A DNA stretch of 64,000 nt from Cubamyces lactineus (taxonomy: Eukaryota > Basidiomycota > Agaricomycetes > Polyporales > Polyporaceae): contig JACDTU010000019.1 of assembly GCA_022376465.1 (NCBI GenBank), forward strand, positions 186,001 through 250,000, read 5' to 3'. Position 1 is the stretch's first letter. The number at the start of each line of letters is the position of its first letter. This document shows positions 51,755 to 62,416 of the stretch, in pieces. Under the pieces are notes generated by a model. The model was not told where the DNA came from. It saw nothing but the letters and a program-made list of their open reading frames with translations, and did no database searches. Position numbers and translations under genes: made by a program.

Positions 51755-52878
51755 TCGGATGATGTCATATTCAGCATGCCATGAATTCACAGATACTTTC
51801 AAGCCAGATATTATCAAGAAGGAGCAGCGAATCCATACATTCCAATGTGAACACAGCCCACCCAAGGGAATGCTATGGAATTATCCTGTCAAACCTCTAA
51901 ATCAAGATCTGGTTGTCTCATTTGTGTGTGCTCTATCGGATGAGGACGAGGAAGACCCAGACTCCGAAAGACTTACATTCAATCCTTCGAGGACAATTGA
52001 ATAATGGTATCGCAAGAAGAAGATTTGAAGGATTAATAAGTTTATGGAGATCGCTATAGCAGCAAAAAAAGATCAGAAGGAAAGGACCTTGGACGAAATC
52101 CTGCCGGATTTTGTAAAGGACTATCAACAGGTCTTTGAGAAGAAGGCAGCAAGTAGATTTCCACCCTTGAGACCATGGGACCATGCAATTGAATTCAAGA
52201 AGGACTTTGATTATAACACCAAAGGGTCATGGAGGAAGATCTACCCGCTGACTTATACGGAACGTGCAGAACTCAACAAGTTCATTGTGGAGAATCTCGA
52301 GAAGGGATATATTTGAAAATCCAAGTCTCCTCTAGCCTCGCCATTTTTCTTTGTCACCAAGAAAGATGGAAGTCTTCGACCGGTTCAAGATTACCGGGCT
52401 CTTAACGAAGAGACAGTGAAAAATGCATACCCTTTGCCACTCATTAGCGACATTATTGACCAGCTGAAGGGGGTCACAATATTCACCAAACTTGATGTGC
52501 GAGCAGAATACAAAAATGTTCACATCAAGGAAGTGGAAAGCTGTGTTTATTACACCAAGTGGATGGTTCGAACTAATGGCCAGGTTTTTGGTTTGTGCAA
52601 TGCACCAGCTGCATTCCAAAATATGATGAATAACATCTTGTGGGATATGCTCCAGGCATTTATGTGGATGTGATCCTAATATTCTCATACAATGTTGAAG
52701 AACACCACAAAAGGACAAGGAGAGCCTTACAACAGGTCCAAGACAGTGACCTATTCCTGAGGGCAGAATCATGCAAATTTGGTAGGCAAAGACTTGAATT
52801 CTTAAGATTGATAATCTGTCCAGGAGTAGCCCTATGAATCCCATAACACTTAAGGCAATCATTGAGTGGGAACCACTA
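51755..52878 (+). pseudogene. Decayed chromovirus pol (protease end to RT), target of the young insertion
   Basis: Related to 56540-57720 of the young pol, with TAA after SRTIE and TGA shortly after, and further stops in the RT (after YMxD-equivalent MWM and CPGVAL). It continues at 61788-61859 (KTVRQVQAFLELRDFY-like) on the other side of the young element. From 51795 to 52262 it is nearly identical to 36415-35945 of the old minus-strand copy. Confidence 0.85.
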
Positions 52879-53420
52879 TGTTACGAATGTACGATAGGCG
52901 TGTTACGAACTTTACGAACTGGTACAGTATCTGCTTCGATCTCTGTACGATACAGATATGGCGGACTCTAGGATTCTAGCTACGGTTCTATAAGACAGGA
53001 ATGGTCTCGTATTATCTAGGACACTCTAGGACTTTCTATGCACAGTCACTTCTGCACAGTGCACAGTTAATTCCGCGCAGTGCACAGGCGCTTCTGCACA
53101 GTCCACAGCAGCACTGCCACAGTGTTACTAGGTTCGACTAGCGCTGACTACTACGTACCAGAAAGTCCGTGTATACGCTAGAACATTCCGTCTACAGGCC
53201 TGCATACATGTATATAAGAGGCGACGCCATAGAGCGACCCTCAGCTTTCAGTCTCTTCGCGAAATACGACTTTGGTTGCTCGTTAACTCGCTTTCAACTG
53301 CAAATACTACTACGCGCTTATCTTCGACAAGCTAGGGCTAGTAGCTGAATAGATACAAGCTCTCTATTCATTGACGTCTTAAGGCTTGATAGTTTAAGAG
53401 TCACGCTCGAAAGCGTAACA
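52879..53420 (+). repeat. 5' LTR of the young chromovirus
   Basis: TG...CA ends with 7-bp inverted termini (TGTTACG and CGTAACA). By the start site predicted at 53243, U3 is 364 bp and R plus U5 178 bp. U3 contains short repeated GCACAGT units (53039-53110). Confidence 0.95.
53211..53243 (+). promoter_or_regulatory. LTR core promoter: TATA box and predicted start site
   Basis: TATATAAG at 53211-53218 and a TCAG initiator-like site with A at 53243, 32 bp downstream. The A is also the exact start of the 12-nt match to the primer site, which supports it independently. Confidence 0.75.
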
Positions 53421-53422
53421 TT

Positions 53423-53434
53423 AGACTGAAAGCT
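53423..53434 (+). other. Self-primer binding site for reverse transcription
   Basis: AGACTGAAAGCT lies 2 nt inside the 5' LTR and is perfectly complementary to the first 12 nt of the predicted transcript (AGCTTTCAGTCT, 53243-53254). No TGG-type tRNA primer site is present. The arrangement matches the known self-priming of Tf1-type chromoviruses. Confidence 0.78.
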
Positions 53435-53446
53435 TTAACCCTCCAC

Positions 53447-54322
53447 TTGTTAAAAGTGCAGAGGCCTACGTCGGAAGACAACGACTACGAAACGCATCAG
53501 AACTCTCTCTTGCTCGTAACGTACAGAGAGACGATAGTCAATACGGAGGGAACTACACAACCCCCATTGCGACAATCACCCAGGGTACTAGGCGGAAGGA
53601 ACAAAACACTGCCGAGCTTACCACCACTCGCGATCCCGGAGAATATAGTTGCTCTCCCAAGATCGCCAGGAGGATCCCCATTCCCCTTGATAAGAGGTTT
53701 TAGCTCGACAATCCCTTACGTAGAAAGTACCAGTTCGACATCGTCGGGTCGGAGCACTCGAGTATCGGAACAAGAACCCGCGTTTCAGAGAACAGACGAG
53801 TGGAGAGAATATAGGAATTCTCTGGCCATTCAGGCGGAATCAGGAGTAGCAATAGGCGTACCCATTCCAACCCGAGCGAGTCCAGGAACGGATAGTTCGG
53901 ATCGATCGACTCCAGAAACTAGTGTTGAAGAAGCATCCTCAACGGCAGGGATATTCTATCGGAGAACACAGCTTCCGGTGCACGCGATCGATACACTTCG
54001 AGTTATAGCAGATAACTTGGAAGTACTAGGACAGGAAGACTTCACGAGGAGATATCACGCGACTCTCGAACGAGCCCATCGATACATAACTCAGGTCATC
54101 CAGACACTCGAATTTATTCCAAGACAAGCTGTTACACCTCCAACGAGGGTACGGAACTTTGCGGGATATCTTCAGAACCAGATTGACTACCTGCGAGCAA
54201 AGGTCCTCAATCCGGAGAACTACGCAGATATAGACCTCGAAGAAAATCTTAGGAAATTTCGTAGTTGCCTCCGAGCTAGGGAACTACATCAGGCTTTCCT
54301 ACGACAAGCACAACGTGTATGA
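53447..54322 (+). CDS. Chromovirus ORF1, 291 codons without any ATG
   Basis: Unrecognised protein. The frame is open from 53393 to the TGA at 54320-54322 and has no ATG; the start shown (TTG) is arbitrary. In-frame near-cognate codons include ATT 53420, CTG 53426 (A at -3), TTG 53447, GTG 53456 and ACG 53468. The first half is Ser/Pro/Thr-rich; the second (from about residue 150 of the frame shown) is helical and charged, and is conserved in the decayed copy at 41.1-41.6 kb. The stop overlaps the gag ATG as ATGA. It could be an accessory Gag-like protein. Alternatives: an intron supplying an ATG, or loss of the original ATG. Confidence 0.7.
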   Translation: MLKVQRPTSEDNDYETHQNSLLLVTYRETIVNTEGTTQPPLRQSPRVLGGRNKTLPSLPPLAIPENIVALPRSPGGSPFPLIRGFSSTIPYVESTSSTSSGRSTRVSEQEPAFQRTDEWREYRNSLAIQAESGVAIGVPIPTRASPGTDSSDRSTPETSVEEASSTAGIFYRRTQLPVHAIDTLRVIADNLEVLGQEDFTRRYHATLERAHRYITQVIQTLEFIPRQAVTPPTRVRNFAGYLQNQIDYLRAKVLNPENYADIDLEENLRKFRSCLRARELHQAFLRQAQRV

Positions 54323-56193
54323 GTTCAGCTGAACCATATAGTTGTTCAAGGTTATATCATCTCTACAACTCCGACAAAGCTCGGGACGTATACTATCGAG
54401 AAAGCGTAGACAAGTGGAATTTTTGCACCAACGAAAGGTGTCCACTTCGGTACAACACTAAGGAGGTTCCAAACGTCAAGCACGCATCGGCTTTAATCCT
54501 AACACACTCTTCACAAGAGCGGGATATTACTAACACCCACGGACGACAACCCGCGTTAGTCAAGAAGCCACTACTTGCTGGAAAAGCTACTGGTCGGATT
54601 AATAGTCCGAGAGTTGTGTCAGGATCGTTTCCGACTTCAAGAGTAGGAACCCCAAAACCTCAAGAATCCGAATCACCTAAGGAATCAGGTCCATCCTTCA
54701 AGGAGAAAGGAAAGGAGACCGAACCGCCTAAGGTAGAGGACTCGGACAAGGAGGACGAGACTTTTCGGACGACGGTCGAAGCACCTGAACCGAAAATCGA
54801 GGAAACTATTCGGATTAAGGTCGTAGTACCTGCACCGAAAACAGAAGACACTCGGGTAGAGGCAGAAACACCTGAACCGAGAGAAGAGCATATTCAGACA
54901 GAGGTCGAGGAGACTAAATCTGAATTGGAGTATACTGGTCGCAGCGCAACCCCAGAATTTGTACGAAAATCAGTACCATCGTACATGTCGGGAACAGCGA
55001 CAGGAGAGTCCATTTCTGGAGCCCATAGATATGCGTTCACTCCGCAAGGGCAAGGCTCAGAAGGAGAAAGATACGGGTCTTTATCAAGTGGACCAGCCCC
55101 TCGGGCAACGGCAATTTCTGGAGGAGTTATCAATCCTTCTGGAGGTGGAGGAGGAGGCGGACCAGGTAGGCCCGGAGGTCGGCCTGACCCTGAGCCTTCA
55201 GATCCCTACTCCCCAGGAGGAGGACCACCAGGACCAGACCCAGACCCGGAACCGCAAGAAGCTCCAGGAAATGCGCCGCAAGGACACGGAAAGGGCAAGA
55301 TCAAGGACCCTGAGGTCTTCAACGGAGACCGAGACAAAACCAGGTCCTTCCTCAATCAACTGTTCCTGTTATTCACGGCGCGACCCCACGACTTCGTTAA
55401 TGATTACACGAAGGTGGCGACGGCCCTGTCCTTCATGGAAGGGGACAATATAAACTACTGGAAGGACATCACAATTCAGCGAGCTGAAGAGGAAATTAGA
55501 CCGGGAGTCTATCGAGGATTTGACTCTTGGCCGGTCTTCAAGAGGAATTTCCTGCTCGCATTTGCCCCAGTAGACGAGGTGGACGACTCTATGGTTAATC
55601 TCACGACAATACAGCTCAAGGACTACTCTTCAGTTGATGAGTTCAATGCGAGGTTCATGGATCTAGCTCTCAAGGGAAAAATTCTGGACCCAGCAGCGCA
55701 ACTGGCCCTGTACAGAAATGCGCTTCCAGAATATTTACTTAAGAAGATATCCATGTCGTACCCTCCGCCGACGACCATTGAAGAGTGGATGACTAGGACT
55801 AAGGAGATCGACCATAGCTATCACCTTACGGAGAAGATTTTGGCTAATCGTAGAGGACGCAAGGCCAAAACCTCGAAGACTAGGAAGAATGTCAAGACGG
55901 TTAATATCGAGGACGACTCGCTCGATATTAACAAGCTCTCTGTCAAGGAGAGACAGGAGCTGCAAGACAAGGGACTATGTTTCCGGTGCAGGAAGCCGGG
56001 ACATATTTCCAGAGACTGTCCTTCTAAACCTAAGAAGCCCGGCAAACCTGTCAGTCGGAAGGTACGACAGGTTACCGACGAGGACTTAGAGGACGAATCT
56101 GAGGAGATCTCAGACGAAGAGGACGACGAGGACGAAGAGGACAATATTTCTATTAACGCACTCAGGGCTACAGATTTCGAGACGGGTTTTTAG
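54319..56193 (+). CDS. Gag polyprotein with CCHC zinc knuckle
   Basis: 624 aa from the first ATG of the predicted transcript. Residues 1-230 are charged and repetitive; a Gly/Pro-rich stretch follows (about 275-320). The capsid-like Retrotrans_gag domain covers about 330-500 (RSFLNQLFLLFTARP, FLLAFAPVDEV, LPEYLLKKI). The zinc knuckle CFRCRKPGHISRDC is at residues 554-567. The tail is strongly acidic. It forms the particle and packages RNA. The last codons before the stop make a frameshift site (see 56184). Gag and ORF1 overlap by 4 nt. Confidence 0.9.
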   Translation: MSSAEPYSCSRLYHLYNSDKARDVYYRESVDKWNFCTNERCPLRYNTKEVPNVKHASALILTHSSQERDITNTHGRQPALVKKPLLAGKATGRINSPRVVSGSFPTSRVGTPKPQESESPKESGPSFKEKGKETEPPKVEDSDKEDETFRTTVEAPEPKIEETIRIKVVVPAPKTEDTRVEAETPEPREEHIQTEVEETKSELEYTGRSATPEFVRKSVPSYMSGTATGESISGAHRYAFTPQGQGSEGERYGSLSSGPAPRATAISGGVINPSGGGGGGGPGRPGGRPDPEPSDPYSPGGGPPGPDPDPEPQEAPGNAPQGHGKGKIKDPEVFNGDRDKTRSFLNQLFLLFTARPHDFVNDYTKVATALSFMEGDNINYWKDITIQRAEEEIRPGVYRGFDSWPVFKRNFLLAFAPVDEVDDSMVNLTTIQLKDYSSVDEFNARFMDLALKGKILDPAAQLALYRNALPEYLLKKISMSYPPPTTIEEWMTRTKEIDHSYHLTEKILANRRGRKAKTSKTRKNVKTVNIEDDSLDINKLSVKERQELQDKGLCFRCRKPGHISRDCPSKPKKPGKPVSRKVRQVTDEDLEDESEEISDEEDDEDEEDNISINALRATDFETGF

Positions 56194-56224
56194 GCAGGCA
56201 AGCAGACTCGACGCCTGACTTGCC
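56184..56224 (+). promoter_or_regulatory. -1 ribosomal frameshift signal at the gag end
   Basis: Heptamer GGGTTTT at 56184-56190 stands in the gag frame as G GGT TTT, directly before the TAG stop. The pol frame is open across it (ttt tta ggc). A hairpin GGCAAG/CTTGCC (56197-56202 with 56219-56224) begins 6 nt downstream, the usual spacing. Confidence 0.72.
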
Positions 56225-59200
56225 CAAGGAACTGCATGTAACTATTGTAACCAATACAGAGCGGAGACGCAGTGCTCTGCTGATACCCGGTTACATGCAG
56301 GTTCAGGACAAAGCCGTCGAAATCAAGGGGCTCATTGACACTGGTGCGGATGCCGTGATCGTCAATAAAAAGATTGTAGATAAGTACAATCTTCCGACAG
56401 TCAGACTACCGAAGACTCTGACCTTCCGGAACGCGGACGATAGCGTTAATAGTATGGGAACCATTACCCATCGGGTGGAGGGGACATTTAATCTCCACGG
56501 GAAGAAGCTCCCAACAAATTGGTATGTGGCCGACATTGGACGGGACGATGTCCTATTCGGCATGCCATGGATCCGCAAGTACAATCCTAATATCGACTGG
56601 GAAAGTGGACGCATTACTTTCAAGTCGGATATTATCAAGAAGCAGCAGCAGATCCATAAATACCAATGCGAGCACGACCCACCCGAAGGGATGCTGTGGA
56701 ATTTCCCAGTAAAACCTCAAAATCAAGATCTGGTCGTATCGTTCGTACGTGCTATACCGGACGAGGACGACGCAGACCCAGACTCTGAAAGGCTTACATT
56801 TAATCCTTCGAGGGCCATCGAGCTATGGTACCGCAGGAAGAAAATCCGAAAGATTAATAAGTCTACGGAGATAGCTATAGCAGCAAAGAAAGACCAGAAG
56901 GAGAAGACCTTGGACGAAATCCTACCTGATTTTGTAAAGGACTATCGACAGGTCTTTGAGAAAAAGGCAGCAAGTAGATTTCCGCCCTCGAGACCATGGG
57001 ACCATGCTATCGAATTCAAGAAGGACTTCGACCATCATACCAAAGGGTCTTGGAGGAAAATCTACCCTCTGACCTATACGGAACGTATAGAACTCGATAA
57101 ATTCATTGCGGAGAACCTCGAGAAGGGCTACATTCGAAAATCCAAGTCTCCACTAGCCTCGCCATTTTTCTTTGTCACCAAGAAGGATGGGAGTCTTCGA
57201 CCTGTTCAAGACTACAGGGCTCTTAACGAGGGGACTATCAAAAACGCATATCCCTTGCCGCTCATTAGCGACATCATTGACCGGCTGAAGGGGGCCACAA
57301 TATTCACCAAACTCGACGTGCGAGCAGGGTACAATAATGTTCGCATCAAGGAGGGCGATGAGTGGAAAGCTGCGTTTATAACACCCAGCGGATTGTTCGA
57401 ACCAACAGTCATGTTTTTTGGTCTGTGCAATGCACCGGCCACATTCCAGAACATGATGAACGACCTCTTCCGAGACATGCTCCAGGAAGGATGGATGGTC
57501 ATTTACATGGACGACATCCTAATATTCTCAGACAATGTCAAGGATCACCACGAACGCACGCGAAGAGCTTTAAAGCGACTTCAAGACAGTGATCTATTCC
57601 TTAAGGCGGAAAAATGCGAATTCGACAGACAAGAAGTCGAATTCCTAGGATCAATAATTCGGCCAGGGGTAGTCGCTATGGATCCAGTAAAGCTCAAGGC
57701 AATTATCGAGTGGGAACCACCGAAAACAGTCAAGCAGGTTCAGGCATTCCTAGGGTTCGGTAATTTCTACCGACGGTTCATTCGGGATTATTCAAAGATA
57801 GTCCGACCCCTCACGGAATTAACCAAGAAGGACCAGCCTTTTCTGTGGACCCCTGATTGTCAGAAAGCATTCGACACACTCAAGAAGCGGTTTACTGAAG
57901 AACCGATCCTGCAAATCCCGGATCCGGAGAAACCATTTCAGATTGAGTGCGATGCTTCTAAAGTCGCAACAGGTGCTGTACTACGACAGCAAGGAGAGGA
58001 CGGACTATGGCATCCTTGTGCCTATTTGTCCAAGTCCTTTACTCCTGCAGAACGGAACTATCAGATTTATGATAGGGAATTGTTGGCCATTGTTCGAGCT
58101 CTCGAAGCGTGGCGGCATTTTTTGCAGGGCTTCCCACACCCTACAGAAATTCTATCAGATCACAAAAATCTGACCTATTTCCGTACGGCGCAGAAGTTAA
58201 ATCGCAGACAGGCGCGATGGCATTTATTCCTCTCGGAATTCAACATCGTAATCAAGCACCAACCCGGAAAATCCCTCACTCAAGCAGACGCCCTTTCTCG
58301 GAGATCAGGGCATGACGGGGGGGAAAATGACAATAAGGACGTCGTATTATTAGGGCCAGAACTTTTTGCCAAAGCTGTCAACGTTGAGCTACAAGAGCGC
58401 ATCCGTGATAGCAAGCTACGGGACAACTCGGTAGTAGAGTACATTACTCTAAAAGGAAAGGCTACCAAACGCCCAGAGTTCGGCAAACCAGAAGATTGGT
58501 CCGACGACGACGGAATACTCCTGTACAAGAACAGGGTATACGTTCCACCAGATAATCAATTGTATCGTGATATAGTCAAGATGCATCACGACGCACCAAT
58601 TATGGGACACCCAGGAGTCCAGAAAACCTACGATCTGGTTAAACGGGAATATATGTGGCCAGGCATGCGGAAATTCATTGTGCAATACGTCAAAGGTTGC
58701 GCCGCTTGCCAAACAAGCAAGGTCAATACGCATCCCATTAAACCAGGCTTAATTCCCATTCAACACAGTGGGGATACTAGGCCTTTTCGGACAATTACCA
58801 TGGATTATATCACGGATCTACCAGAGTCGGATGGATTTAATGCCATTCAAGTGGTAGTCGACCATGATGTATCCAAGGCAGCAGTATTTTCCCCTTGCAC
58901 CAAGAATATTACGGCTGAAGGAGCCATGGATATTCTGCAAAGGGATGTATATCGCAGATTCGGACTACCCGCGAAGGTCATCTCGGATCGAGGACCGCAA
59001 TTCATCTCCAAGGCATTCAAAGAATTACACAACAGCCTCGGAATTGAAACGGCACTCAGCACGGCCTACCATCCTCAGACAGATGGGGAAACGGAGCGAG
59101 TAAATCAAGAACTCGACTTAGCACTTCGGCTCTACTGTGCTAATAATCCGGAGAACTGGGCCAAACTGCTGCCTCAATTCGAATTCGCGCACAATCAGCG

Positions 59201-59843
59201 GACACACTCTGTCACGGGAAAATCCCCGTTTGAGCTACTCTACGGGTTTCAGCCAGAGGCCGTTGGGACAGTCCGAACAACCCCAAAGCATCCAAGTACG
59301 GAGCAGAGGCTTCAAAGTCTTCAGGAAGCCAGGGAGAATACAATAGCTGCGCACGCGCAGGCCGCCGCAGCTATGTCAAGAAGGCTCCCCGCTGCTCAAG
59401 TTCCGCTGAAGCTTGGAGACAAGGTTCTTCTCGATACAAAGAACCTCAGGCTTCCATATGTCTCCAGGAAGTTAATTCCAAAACGAGTGGGACCGTTCAC
59501 GATCGTCAAGGTCTTGGGACCGGTTACATTTAAGTTAAAACTCCCGGAGAAATGGAAGATACACCCTGTCTTCCACGCAGCGCTACTGACCCCGTACCAC
59601 ACAACTAAGGAACATGGACCAGACTACGTCCGACCTCCACCGATTCCCACTCCAGACTCGACGGAAGGAGAGGAATGGGAGGTAGAAGCAATCCTAAGCC
59701 ACCGTACCCGAGGTACCCGAAAACAGTACCTAGTGGCTTGGAAGGGTTGGCCCGCGTCGGAAAATTCTTGGGAACCAGAAAAACATCTCAAGAATGCGCA
59801 GTCGATCTTGCGCAACTATAAGAAGAGGCACAAGTTGTCGTGA
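56190..59843 (+). CDS. Pol: protease, reverse transcriptase, RNase H, integrase, chromodomain
   Basis: Open for 1,217 codons after the frameshift point; there is no ATG at its start (TTG at 56220), which supports expression as Gag-Pol. Numbered from 56220: protease active site DTGA at 40-43; RT YMDD at 429-432; RNase H from about 560; integrase zinc region HHDAP...CAACQ around 789-830; integrase DDE at Asp862, Asp923 and Glu959 (DX35E); a GPF/Y-like segment, and a C-terminal chromodomain (EEWEVEAI... WKGWP... SWEPEKHL). The chromodomain defines a chromovirus and in known members directs integration to marked chromatin. All catalytic residues are intact. Confidence 0.95.
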   Translation, partial: LGRQADSTPDLPKELHVTIVTNTERRRSALLIPGYMQVQDKAVEIKGLIDTGADAVIVNKKIVDKYNLPTVRLPKTLTFRNADDSVNSMGTITHRVEGTFNLHGKKLPTNWYVADIGRDDVLFGMPWIRKYNPNIDWESGRITFKSDIIKKQQQIHKYQCEHDPPEGMLWNFPVKPQNQDLVVSFVRAIPDEDDADPDSERLTFNPSRAIELWYRRKKIRKINKSTEIAIAAKKDQKEKTLDEILPDFVKDYRQVFEKKAASRFPPSRPWDHAIEFKKDFDHHTKGSWRKIYPLTYTERIELDKFIAENLEKGYIRKSKSPLASPFFFVTKKDGSLRPVQDYRALNEGTIKNAYPLPLISDIIDRLKGATIFTKLDVRAGYNNVRIKEGDEWKAAFITPSGLFEPTVMFFGLCNAPATFQNMMNDLFRDMLQEGWMVIYMDDILIFSDNVKDHHERTRRALKRLQDSDLFLKAEKCEFDRQEVEFLGSIIRPGVVAMDPVKLKAIIEWEPPKTVKQVQAFLGFGNFYRRFIRDYSKIVRPLTELTKKDQPFLWTPDCQKAFDTLKKRFTEEPILQIPDPEKPFQIECDASKVATGAVLRQQGEDGLWHPCAYLSKSFTPAERNYQIYDRELLAIVRALEAWRHFLQGFPHPTEILSDHKNLTYFRTAQKLNRRQARWHLFLSEFNIVIKHQPGKSLTQADALSRRSGHDGGENDNKDVVLLGPELFAKAVNVELQERIRDSKLRDNSVVEYITLKGKATKRPEFGKPEDWSDDDGILLYKNRVYVPPDNQLYRDIVKMHHDAPIMGHPGVQKTYDLVKREYMWPGMRKFIVQYVKGCAACQTSKVNTHPIKPGLIPIQHSGDTRPFRTITMDYITDLPESDGFNAIQVVVDHDVSKAAVFSPCTKNITAEGAMDILQRDVYRRFGLPAKVISDRGPQFISKAFKELHNSLGIETALSTAYHPQTDGETERVNQELDLALRLYCANNPENWAKLLPQFEFAHNQRTHSVTGKSPFELLYGFQPEAVGTVRTTPKHPSTEQRLQSLQEARENTIAAHAQAAAAMSRRLPAAQVPLKLGDKVLLDTKNLRLPYVSRKLIPKRVGPFTIVKVLGPVTFKLKLPEKWKIHPVFHAALLTPYHTTKEHGPDYVRPPPIPTPDSTEGEEWEVEAILSHRTRGTRKQYLVAWKGWPASENSWEPEKHLKNAQSILRNYKKRHKLS

Positions 59844-59910: not shown

Positions 59911-61206
59911 ATGGTCTACACTCGCACTCAGCTCACTGGTCGCCGTTTCTCTGAGGCTTCCAGGCGTAACATCCCTCGTCCCCCCAACTTCATCCGCGAA
60001 CGACGAACGGTTTTTTATAACCACCTTCCTCGACACACCGTCTCGGCCAACGATGAAGGCACCCTCGCCGACCGCATCGGCTGGGTCATCGTTCACCCTG
60101 ACCTCTATAGTCACGTCGAGGCAAGGATCGCTCATCTTCCCGAGGTCAAGGACCTCATCGACATCTACCGCTCTCTCGCTAGAGCCGCTCCCTCTTATGG
60201 AGTTCTCGTCAACTACAATAAGAGAACGTCGGCTCCTAGGTCGGAGAAGAAGAAGGTAGACCAGGTAGCAAACGAGGCGTACCAAGCGGTGATCCAAGCG
60301 GCAGAGAAAGTACTCTCTATGCTCGCTAACCCCCAGATCGCGGGGGCTCTCTCGGATCTCATGCCCCTTCGCAACCAACACGGCACTCACAGCTGGGGGC
60401 ATATCTTTTGGCCGCAGCGCCTCGACGATTACCCGGAGGCTATTGAGGTAGATGAGGATGAAGACGCAGATGTGAGTTCAGTCGGAGGATGGTCAATTCC
60501 TTCGACTGATCCCTGGAAGGTATCCACCCCCGACCCTGAAGAGGAAGCTATCAAATGGGGTCAGACTTCTACCCAAGAGTCGACTCCTTCCCTGACCTCC
60601 TCCAGTTCCGACTCATCCTATTCCGAGGTTGAGTCTTTCGACCTCTTACCTGAGCTCGAACACCTCGAGCTTAGCACGGTCGACGAAGTCGATGAGCTCC
60701 TTGAAGAGGAGTTCCATGAGGCTTTGAAGGTCGCAGTCAGGGCGCCCTCTCCTCCTCCTCCTCCCCCGACAACGCTCACTAAGAACGTCGAGGAACCCCG
60801 AGGACGTTGCGGGTTTTTTCGAGGAACCGGTGAAGATCGACTCGGATATGTCAACTCCAACGGCGACATCTTTGTCGTTCCCAACAACCCCTTCGGCATC
60901 TCGATTACTCGCATTATGGTCGCATACCACCTTCGATGGCCGGAGGCTTCTGTTCGGACCACCATGGCGGCAGCACTTCTTATCGACGATGTCATCGCTC
61001 GTCGAGGTAATTTTCCTGCTTTCAAGATCGAAGCAGAGCGTACCCCGACAACTTATCGCCAGGCTCTAGGCATGTCGGCGGCAGAGTCGGCGCAGTGGGA
61101 CTGCATTCGGGCGGTAGGTAATGAGTCTGACCTCGTCGAGATCTCGTTGGACGTCTTCCGTCCTGAGGTTGTCGAGAGAAACCAGAACATTATTGTGCAT
61201 GCCTAA
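59911..61206 (+). CDS. Extra ORF after pol, 431 aa, unknown function
   Basis: Unrecognised. It starts with ATG 67 bp after the pol stop, in the place where env would lie, but has no signal peptide or membrane segment, so it is not an envelope protein. The N-terminus (residues 1-40) is basic, a central acidic Ser/Thr/Glu-rich part covers about 185-270, then a Pro run (APSPPPPPPTT), and the last 150 residues look folded (RGTGEDRLGYVNSNG, then HLRWPEASVRTTMAAALLIDDV). It is conserved in the decayed copy at 25.9-27.2 kb, so it is part of the family. How it is expressed (spliced RNA or separate promoter) is not clear. Confidence 0.75.
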   Translation: MVYTRTQLTGRRFSEASRRNIPRPPNFIRERRTVFYNHLPRHTVSANDEGTLADRIGWVIVHPDLYSHVEARIAHLPEVKDLIDIYRSLARAAPSYGVLVNYNKRTSAPRSEKKKVDQVANEAYQAVIQAAEKVLSMLANPQIAGALSDLMPLRNQHGTHSWGHIFWPQRLDDYPEAIEVDEDEDADVSSVGGWSIPSTDPWKVSTPDPEEEAIKWGQTSTQESTPSLTSSSSDSSYSEVESFDLLPELEHLELSTVDEVDELLEEEFHEALKVAVRAPSPPPPPPTTLTKNVEEPRGRCGFFRGTGEDRLGYVNSNGDIFVVPNNPFGISITRIMVAYHLRWPEASVRTTMAAALLIDDVIARRGNFPAFKIEAERTPTTYRQALGMSAAESAQWDCIRAVGNESDLVEISLDVFRPEVVERNQNIIVHA

Positions 61207-61240: not shown

Positions 61241-61782
61241 TGTTACGAATGTACGATAGGCGTGTTACGAACTTTACGAACTGGTACAGTATCTGCTTCG
61301 ATCTCTGTACGATACAGATATGGCGGACTCTAGGATTCTAGCTACGGTTCTATAAGACAGGAATGGTCTCGTATTATCTAGGACACTCTAGGACTTTCTA
61401 TGCACAGTCACTTCTGCACAGTGCACAGTTAATTCCGCGCAGTGCACAGGCGCTTCTGCACAGTCCACAGCAGCACTGCCACAGTGTTACTAGGTTCGAC
61501 TAGCGCTGACTACTACGTACCAGAAAGTCCGTGTATACGCTAGAACATTCCGTCTACAGGCCTGCATACATGTATATAAGAGGCGACGCCATAGAGCGAC
61601 CCTCAGCTTTCAGTCTCTTCGCGAAATACGACTTTGGTTGCTCGTTAACTCGCTTTCAACTGCAAATACTACTACGCGCTTATCTTCGACAAGCTAGGGC
61701 TAGTAGCTGAATAGATACAAGCTCTCTATTCATTGACGTCTTAAGGCTTGATAGTTTAAGAGTCACGCTCGAAAGCGTAACA
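61241..61782 (+). repeat. 3' LTR of the young chromovirus
   Basis: Identical to the 5' LTR over all 542 bp by direct comparison, which indicates a recent insertion or recent gene conversion. Confidence 0.95.
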
Positions 61783-61859
61783 CACTAAAGACGGTCAGGC
61801 AAGTCCAGGCATTCCTAGAATTGAGGGATTTTTACTGACAGTGGTCCCATGCCCAAGAC

Positions 61860-61964: not shown

Positions 61965-62416
61965 TGTTATGACGAGTCTAGATCGGTCATGCGGTGGCTG
62001 AGCTAGGGGTCACGTCGCCTCGAAGGGTAACAAAGAGGCGAGTCAGGGATTGAAGATCTTCTGAGAAGAGGCGAGTCGGGGTTCGGTGAATAGGCAATAG
62101 ATAACCAGATCAAGCTGAGGTTCTTCGAAGAAGGTCCTCGGCTTATATATACATGGCCGAGACTAATAATAGACTGGATCGGTAAGCAAATGTTCAGTAT
62201 GGCTAAGTATAGTTGGGGCTGACTGTACATGGGAATGGAGGTGACGAATCATGAGAATAAATGACGTGTCGCTGACGTGGCATGGGAGAATGGAGCTAAG
62301 TATACAACATATGAGTAAGCCGCAGCAGGCTCGGCCTCCGGAACATATAAGCATAGAACAAGTCACAAGGTCAAGACGTAACCGTAACAGTGGCCGTGTC
62401 ACGCACCGTCGTAACA
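61965..62416 (-). repeat. 3' LTR of a second gypsy element
   Basis: On the minus strand it starts TGTTACGACGG and ends CTCGTCATAACA (452 bp). TATA box TATATATAAG at 62151-62142 and a CTCAG start-like site with A at 62116. The polypurine tract (AAAGGGGGTAA on the minus strand, 62427-62417) adjoins it. Its partner LTR must lie beyond the right end of the window. Confidence 0.8.

Follow-up and report, generated by a model that had tools for sequence, protein, structure and literature searches.

Members of the Caulimoviridae, among them rice tungro bacilliform virus (RTBV) and the badnaviruses, have neither long terminal repeats (LTRs) nor an integrase, and the self-priming Ty3/gypsy retrotransposon Tf1 consists of a single open reading frame (ORF). 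Short overlaps and fused stop-start codons occur in the Caulimoviridae, and RTBV ribosomes bypass ORF II to reach ORF III, according to passages of PMC5902531. Tf1, Tj1, and other self-priming elements have a primer-binding site (PBS) complementary to the 5' end of the RNA (PMC4600332, in excerpt). PEG10, a human gene derived from a Ty3/gypsy element, is described in part of PMC2800197 as initiating a Gag-like protein both at an AUG and at an upstream non-AUG codon, and as using a -1 frameshift. LTR retrotransposons also carry extra ORFs, in plants upstream of gag-pol as well (PMC7264820), and one figure legend in a survey of fungal chromoviruses indicates an extra ORF whose function is unknown (PMC2864245); the text passages of these two papers, figures and supplements aside, mention no AUG-free leader or non-AUG start. 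Here we describe a complete LTR retrotransposon within a 64,000-nucleotide stretch of the Cubamyces lactineus genome (contig JACDTU010000019.1, positions 186,001 to 250,000; "the window"). We think it probable that this self-priming chromovirus initiates its first ORF, ORF1, at a non-AUG codon, probably ACG, and reaches gag by leaky scanning, working like RTBV. Since RTBV, PEG10, and the self-priming elements cover its individual parts, the element is a variant combining known kinds; the layout is new as a combination, and its parts are already known. The preliminary description of this DNA knew of no such layout in a fungal LTR retrotransposon, and our literature search also found no title or abstract describing one, with thin coverage of figures, supplements, and subscription papers, most of which lay outside it; a term search of PMC3248453 gave no match.

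From the predicted transcript start at 53243 to position 54318, the sense strand holds no ATG in any frame, and the next one, at 54319, is the gag start; the same interval contains 13 CAT. Both counts reproduce those made previously. ATG is the only one of the 64 trinucleotides absent from this leader and has the lowest z-score of all (-3.14). The longest ATG-free run on the plus strand of the window, 1,111 nt from 53208, covers the leader, and the second longest, 666 nt, adjoins it and is the beginning of gag. ORF1 (53393..54322, plus strand) is open from 53393, as first reported, for 309 codons and not the 291 given then; it has no ATG in any frame, and its TGA stop indeed overlaps the gag ATG as ATGA.

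The figure of about 17 ATG first put forward as the chance expectation proved too high. Base composition predicts 16.1, but dinucleotide-preserving shuffles gave a mean of 6.6 (none in 2 of 2,000) and synonymous-codon shuffles of ORF1 a mean of 4.2 (none in 3 of 2,000), so that a fair expectation is 4 to 7. From 53468 on, 4.15 were expected by synonymous shuffling (P = 0.0008), and pol codon usage gave a mean of 3.87 (P = 0.0044). The same test revealed no depletion elsewhere, with 14 ATG against 16.1 expected in the gag core, 51 against 53.9 in pol, and 20 against 15.2 in ORF4, an extra ORF downstream of pol. Dinucleotide content by itself lowers the expectation from 16.1 to 6.6, which favors the view that chance or composition alone emptied the leader and that ORF1 is a relic. 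Both types of shuffle nevertheless make absence by chance unlikely in the window copy (P of about 0.001), as random placement of substitutions does in the distant copy L071 (P = 0.0002), and ORF1 shows purifying selection between subfamilies and has homologues almost free of Met. This explanation is contradicted by counts already in hand, and we give it practically no credence.

A count of ATG across family copies, which the preliminary description had proposed as a check, agreed with its prediction in close family members. In the genome searched (36.3 Mb, 43 contigs), the ORF1 protein matches 86 places, represented by 80 loci (L009 to L088; L001 to L008 fall within the same copies as other loci). 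Groups A and B together comprise 62 loci with 95 to 100% amino acid identity, including the window's own copy and L070, the latter despite an N-terminal frame change; they hold 47 distinct leader sequences, and every one of the 62 loci has an ATG-free leader. Among 41 leaders of equal length, 83 single-base variants create no ATG, against 3.93 expected. Group C comprises 14 loci (L071 to L084) with up to 72% identity. L071, at 72%, has accumulated 205 leader substitutions and no ATG, against 8.45 expected (P = 0.0002), and ATG is again its only absent trinucleotide. The older copies have one to nine: one in L076, two each in L072, L073, L074, L075, L077, and L078, and three to nine in L079 to L084. 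Random placement of the observed substitutions predicts 8.3 to 8.8 for L073, L076, and L077, which have 2, 1, and 2 (P = 0.001 to 0.008). Counts for L072, L074, and L075, which lack the exact start motif, refer to a fixed length, as do the nine ATG of L080, which lacks the motif and aligns badly. L085 to L088 were excluded because gag could not be placed in them; their counts of 3, 0, 8, and 7 refer to arbitrary intervals. The ATG-freeness of the leader looks selected, as would be expected if any AUG, in whatever frame, intercepted scanning ribosomes.

The leader alignment included 11 of the 14 group C loci (all but L075, L082, and L084). With L080 set aside, 30 ATGs were traced in nine group C leaders among 13 aligned leaders; 23 lie at positions that are mostly ACG elsewhere, none is the majority state, and some are common to two to four copies. 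This gain of ATG in older copies (L072 to L083), mostly at ACG, fits C-to-T decay at CpG in silenced copies. Such copies offer a built-in control for translation-driven selection.

Between subfamilies, ORF1 evolves as a protein: the ratio of nonsynonymous to synonymous substitution rates (dN/dS) is about 0.37, ranging from 0.36 to 0.39 between the window copy and six group C copies, and three pairs within group C gave 0.30 to 0.37. By region, in two copies compared in detail, the last 123 codons gave about 0.20 and the middle 0.41 to 0.48. There are 17 database homologues, down to 42% identity, several of them close to one another and so not independent; their 3,346 aligned residues include a single internal Met, compared with a Met content of 1.5% for the gag core and pol. 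A named relative, from Cerioporus squamosus, is 54% identical over 59% of the length. In P0001, P0003, P0013, P0014, and P0016 the first Met aligns with a Val of the window protein, and for P0001 (GTG) and P0002 (TTG) the DNA of copies in this genome points to an alternative codon translated as Met by the gene caller. The structure model of ORF1 is poor (mean predicted local distance difference test score of 49.7; C-terminal blocks, 52 to 82) and matched nothing in the PDB at an E value of ≤0.001; a scan of viral contigs with ORF1 found no relative, and a Pfam search of ORF1 and ORF4 found no family above the cut-off. The product is probably an accessory structural protein with a disordered N terminus and a helical C terminus, the structural role being a guess from the position of the gene.

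The transcript start that the preliminary description had predicted received independent backing from self-priming complementarity. A TATA box (TATATAA, 53211..53217, plus strand) lies 32 nt upstream of 53243 and recurs in the other aligned leaders, except for L081, where one base differs, and L080, which does not align there. The putative 5' end and self-primer, AGCTTTCAGTCT (53243..53254), is the exact reverse complement of the PBS, AGACTGAAAGCT (53423..53434, both plus strand), two bases past the end of the 5' LTR, and in the predicted fold the two form a 12-bp duplex, paired throughout. In a second family from the same genome, represented by three leaders (L090 to L092) with 64 to 66% identity to the window element in reverse transcriptase (RT), the pair reads AGCTCGACCT/AGGTCGAGCT in L090 and AGCTCGATCT/AGATCGAGCT in L091, so that both sides change together. 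This covariation and the exact complementarity support 53243 as the 5' end of the RNA. The element resembles Tf1, Tf2, Tj1, and other self-priming Ty3/gypsy elements in having a PBS complementary, at 12 of 12 nt, to the (here predicted) RNA 5' end within the LTR; it differs from Tf1-type elements in its AUG-free leader and in the ORF that precedes gag.

We propose that the full-length RNA starts at 53243 and that 40S subunits scanning from there move first past the self-priming duplex and then past a small hairpin. A minority would initiate ORF1 at a near-cognate codon just past the hairpin, most likely the ACG at 53468, and the others, meeting no AUG for 1,076 nt, would reach the gag AUG within ATGA. 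Some ribosomes would probably continue through another 666 AUG-free nt to a second, in-frame AUG and make a shorter Gag. The depletion of out-of-frame ATGs inside ORF1 supports this interpretation, which the preliminary description had already offered for the non-AUG start and the leaky scanning. As in RTBV and the badnaviruses, the first ORF is devoid of AUG, and this is conserved in relatives. The window element is instead a fungal LTR retrotransposon that encodes an integrase and a chromodomain; its LTRs and integrase place it outside the Caulimoviridae. Its candidate start is ACG and not AUU, and its second AUG-free stretch belongs to gag, in frame with the downstream AUG. The short AUG-started upstream ORF before a large stem-loop that marks an RTBV-type shunt is absent, there being no ATG from 53243 to 54319.

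The hairpin that follows the PBS, CCTCCACTT-gttaa-AAGTG-ca-GAGG (53440..53464, plus strand), helps to locate the start of ORF1. Its arms are kept in the aligned leaders of groups A, B, and C and in L085, with a one-base arm change in L071 and L079 and no alignment in L080, and its loop and bulge vary, the loop also in length. The ORF1 frame of group C differs upstream and is closed by a TAA in the hairpin loop, so ORF1 must start later there. Four group B copies (L064, L066, L067, and L069) have a TAG at 53459 to 53461, right after the GTG at 53456, and no other interruption in ORF1 or the part of gag covered; RT frames at the corresponding distance run for 1,228 codons without a stop. Of 1,676 positions compared between L066 and L069, 21 differ, and the TAG copies therefore look like a lineage that spread and then diverged. 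The shared stop codons and the frame change point to a start near the end of the hairpin or after it. CTG 53426 (inside the PBS), TTG 53447, and GTG 53456 were rejected as general starts, since in group C they either precede the in-frame TAA or belong to a different frame and in the four group B copies they run into the TAG. The best candidate is the ACG at 53468..53470 (plus strand), the first near-cognate codon past the hairpin in groups A and B, the four TAG copies included, when AAG and AGG are ignored, as they were in all our near-cognate counts. Of 10 aligned group C copies (excluding L080), 7 share this ACG in frame, and L085 has it too.

The gag gene (54319..56193, plus strand) encodes a CCHC zinc knuckle, with a Retrotrans_gag match below the cut-off. 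Its AUG lies in a weak context (acaacgtgtATGag), with neither a purine at -3 nor a G at +4, identical in the six loci of groups A, B, and C inspected; some ribosomes would therefore probably pass on to the second AUG. The N-terminal extension of gag (54319..54984, plus strand; 222 codons) has no further ATG, against expectations of 2.79 by synonymous shuffling (P = 0.024) and 3.96 under pol codon usage (P = 0.004), and the second AUG, at 54985..54987 on the plus strand, is in frame and a candidate start for core Gag. For 58 of the 62 group A and B loci, the first ATG past the gag start lies at +666 and in frame; for 5 of the 14 group C loci it lies at +582, likewise in frame. The remaining 4 and 9 loci have an earlier ATG. 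The second AUG does not lie in a better context (ccatcgtacATGtcg) than the first. These data fit a second leaky step and suggest long and short forms of Gag. P0026, a database homologue of Gag, has about 150 residues without internal Met and then a core starting MSGTQ, which hints at a wider pattern.

Gag might instead be reached mainly by termination at the end of ORF1 and reinitiation at ATGA. The overlap is kept in all 76 loci L009 to L084, as is ATGAGTTCA at the gag start, and stop-start overlaps are used by non-LTR retrotransposons; according to the same passages, reinitiation is usual only after ORFs of under about 50 codons (PMC5902531), whereas ORF1 is long. Elongating ribosomes are blind to out-of-frame AUGs, so reinitiation leaves the absence of AUG from ORF1 unexplained, and with it the ATG-free first 666 nt of gag. 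Leaky scanning is preferred because out-of-frame AUGs in ORF1 and the gag extension would trap only scanning ribosomes. Reinitiation as the main route is unlikely, but it may add to leaky scanning.

A spliced mRNA could supply ORF1 with an AUG, either from an upstream exon or through an A/TG junction (the slash marks the splice) such as AAAAG/TGCAGAGG at 53456, which in groups A and B would give an in-frame ATG CAG AGG followed by an open frame. This junction, the only in-frame A/TG acceptor in those groups, would read ATG CAG AGG TGA in group C, whereas the four group B copies would have ATG TAG, and L090 and L091 have no in-frame A/TG at all. Group C does have a deep in-frame A/TG near leader positions 778 to 808, whose use would leave just the last 98 codons or so, and the Cerioporus squamosus gene model P0011 joins unrelated upstream sequence near this place. 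AT/G junctions are impossible in ATG-free DNA, because AT/GT or AT/GC would itself contain ATG. An A/GTRNG donor, the sole form tested, is absent from the first 400 nt of all eight leaders examined from the window family and of L090; L091 has one. The preliminary description had named a spliced AUG as one result that would overturn its proposal; the junction proved possible in groups A and B only, and, with the search confined to sequence from 53243 onward, we consider splicing very unlikely.

Internal ribosome entry or another promoter might serve ORF1 or gag, the AUG absence then having some other cause. The predicted 5' structure (-66.6 kcal/mol for 53243 to 53470, a value without a shuffle control) would suit internal entry. 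Neither mechanism requires a 1.1-kb AUG-free tract, however, and a start farther upstream would add the ATG at 53208, whose frame closes after 46 codons. We regard both as highly improbable.

The second family offers a comparison. The leader of L090 (2196 to 2849, G000:C23) has no ATG over 653 nt and, from 2321, an open frame in register with gag; that of L091 has none over 657 nt and is open from 2569, and that of L092 has one ATG, where L091 has ACG. The gag extension of this family is protein-coding (47% amino acid identity; dN/dS of 0.39, though with a synonymous rate, dS, of 1.34), and the 509-codon frame of L090 (2321 to 3847) occurs in 41 of 83 rows, three of the 41 with an inner TGA. 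The only in-frame near-cognate codon with both a purine at -3 and a G at +4 is an ACG, at 2405 in L090 (60 codons examined) and at 2590 in reversed L091 (40 codons), and the latter is the only near-cognate in those 40 codons. In our reading of the protein alignment the two ACGs align. The best two family 2 Gag relatives in Trametes cubensis are 85 to 86% identical, and two gene models from that species share this extension and have a Thr where the ACG aligns. The named relatives, from this species and Cerioporus squamosus, suggest a polypore-type basidiomycete host. A non-AUG ORF in frame with Gag, as in PEG10, is present here (L090, 2321 to 3847), whereas ORF1 of the window element is in another frame, separate from Gag. 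PEG10 is closest to family 2 and, in the portion of its description available, differs in its CUG, its 34-residue extension, and its status as a domesticated host gene. Homology between the extensions of the two families was unsupported among the BLAST matches listed, which were low-complexity alignments (best E value of 0.002, uncorrected for composition). A clade of self-priming basidiomycete chromoviruses, in which an ACG shortly past the PBS opens an AUG-free coding region and leakage sets the product ratio, is conceivable but tentative. Three products would result in the window family (ORF1, long Gag, and core Gag) and two in family 2 (long Gag and core Gag), and the self-priming duplex directly upstream, with the hairpin in the window family, might switch the RNA between translation and reverse transcription.

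Several points weigh against the proposed scheme of non-AUG initiation and leaky scanning. Scanning over more than 1 kb is demanding. The ACG at 53468 has a poor context in groups A and B (C at -3, T at +4); in group C it is preceded by a GTG that overlaps the last hairpin base. At this site L074, whose ORF1 is nonetheless open, has ACA; in L077 and L081 the codon is ATG and would give ORF1 an AUG. The first 40 codons of ORF1 gave a dN/dS of 0.82, and comparison of group A with two group B copies gave 0.99 and 0.73, with 16 substitutions each, values that are uninformative or indicate relaxed selection. ORF1 contains one TGA in L071, the distant ATG-free copy, and one TAA in L073. The group B copy L048 has no ATG against 0.69 expected (P = 0.50), too few to inform. 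In family 2, ATG depletion in the extension is not significant (P = 0.59 and 0.16; 0.13 with gag-pol codon usage).

If the scheme of leaky scanning past a non-AUG ORF1 holds, RTBV-style polycistronic translation would extend to a fungal LTR retrotransposon, and ORF1 would be a long natural ORF with a non-AUG start and measurable selection. Gene prediction serves such proteins poorly: the Cerioporus squamosus model P0011 and the Trametes cubensis models P0018 and P0019 draw their first Met from upstream sequence, which in the Trametes models resembles, in our comparison with L090, the LTR before the start site.

The element is bounded by LTRs at 52879..53420 (TGTTACG...CGTAACA) and 61241..61782, both on the plus strand, 542 bp long, and identical without a mismatch over their whole length, and is flanked by a 5-bp target duplication, CACTA, at 52874 to 52878 and 61783 to 61787. 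The TG..CA termini and short duplication are those of Ty3/gypsy chromoviruses. Pfam matches in pol (56157..59843, plus strand) follow the chromoviral order of protease, RT, RNase H, integrase, and C-terminal chromodomain (PF00385; E value, 1e-15), and with the CCHC-knuckle gag they identify a Ty3/gypsy chromovirus. A young (identical LTRs), self-priming member of this group is the best explanation of the element, and, taken jointly with the whole translation scheme, a probable one. The heptamer GGGTTTT (56184..56190, plus strand), of slippery type, lies directly before the gag stop and is likely a -1 frameshift site, pol being in the -1 frame. ORF4 (59911..61206, plus strand; 431 codons), between pol and the 3' LTR, is not depleted in ATG and has 99 genome matches in several sequence groups (about 93 to 95%, 85 to 86%, and 65 to 78%). 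An Rfam scan of the window at gathering scores gave no match. Older gypsy pol fragments, 73 to 83% identical to the element in pieces, flank it on both sides (51794 to 52877 and 61783 to 61842), indicating insertion into an older element. Farther downstream, 61965 to 62116 on the minus strand matches the beginning of R-U5 in the L091 leader (family 2b) at 94.7% identity.
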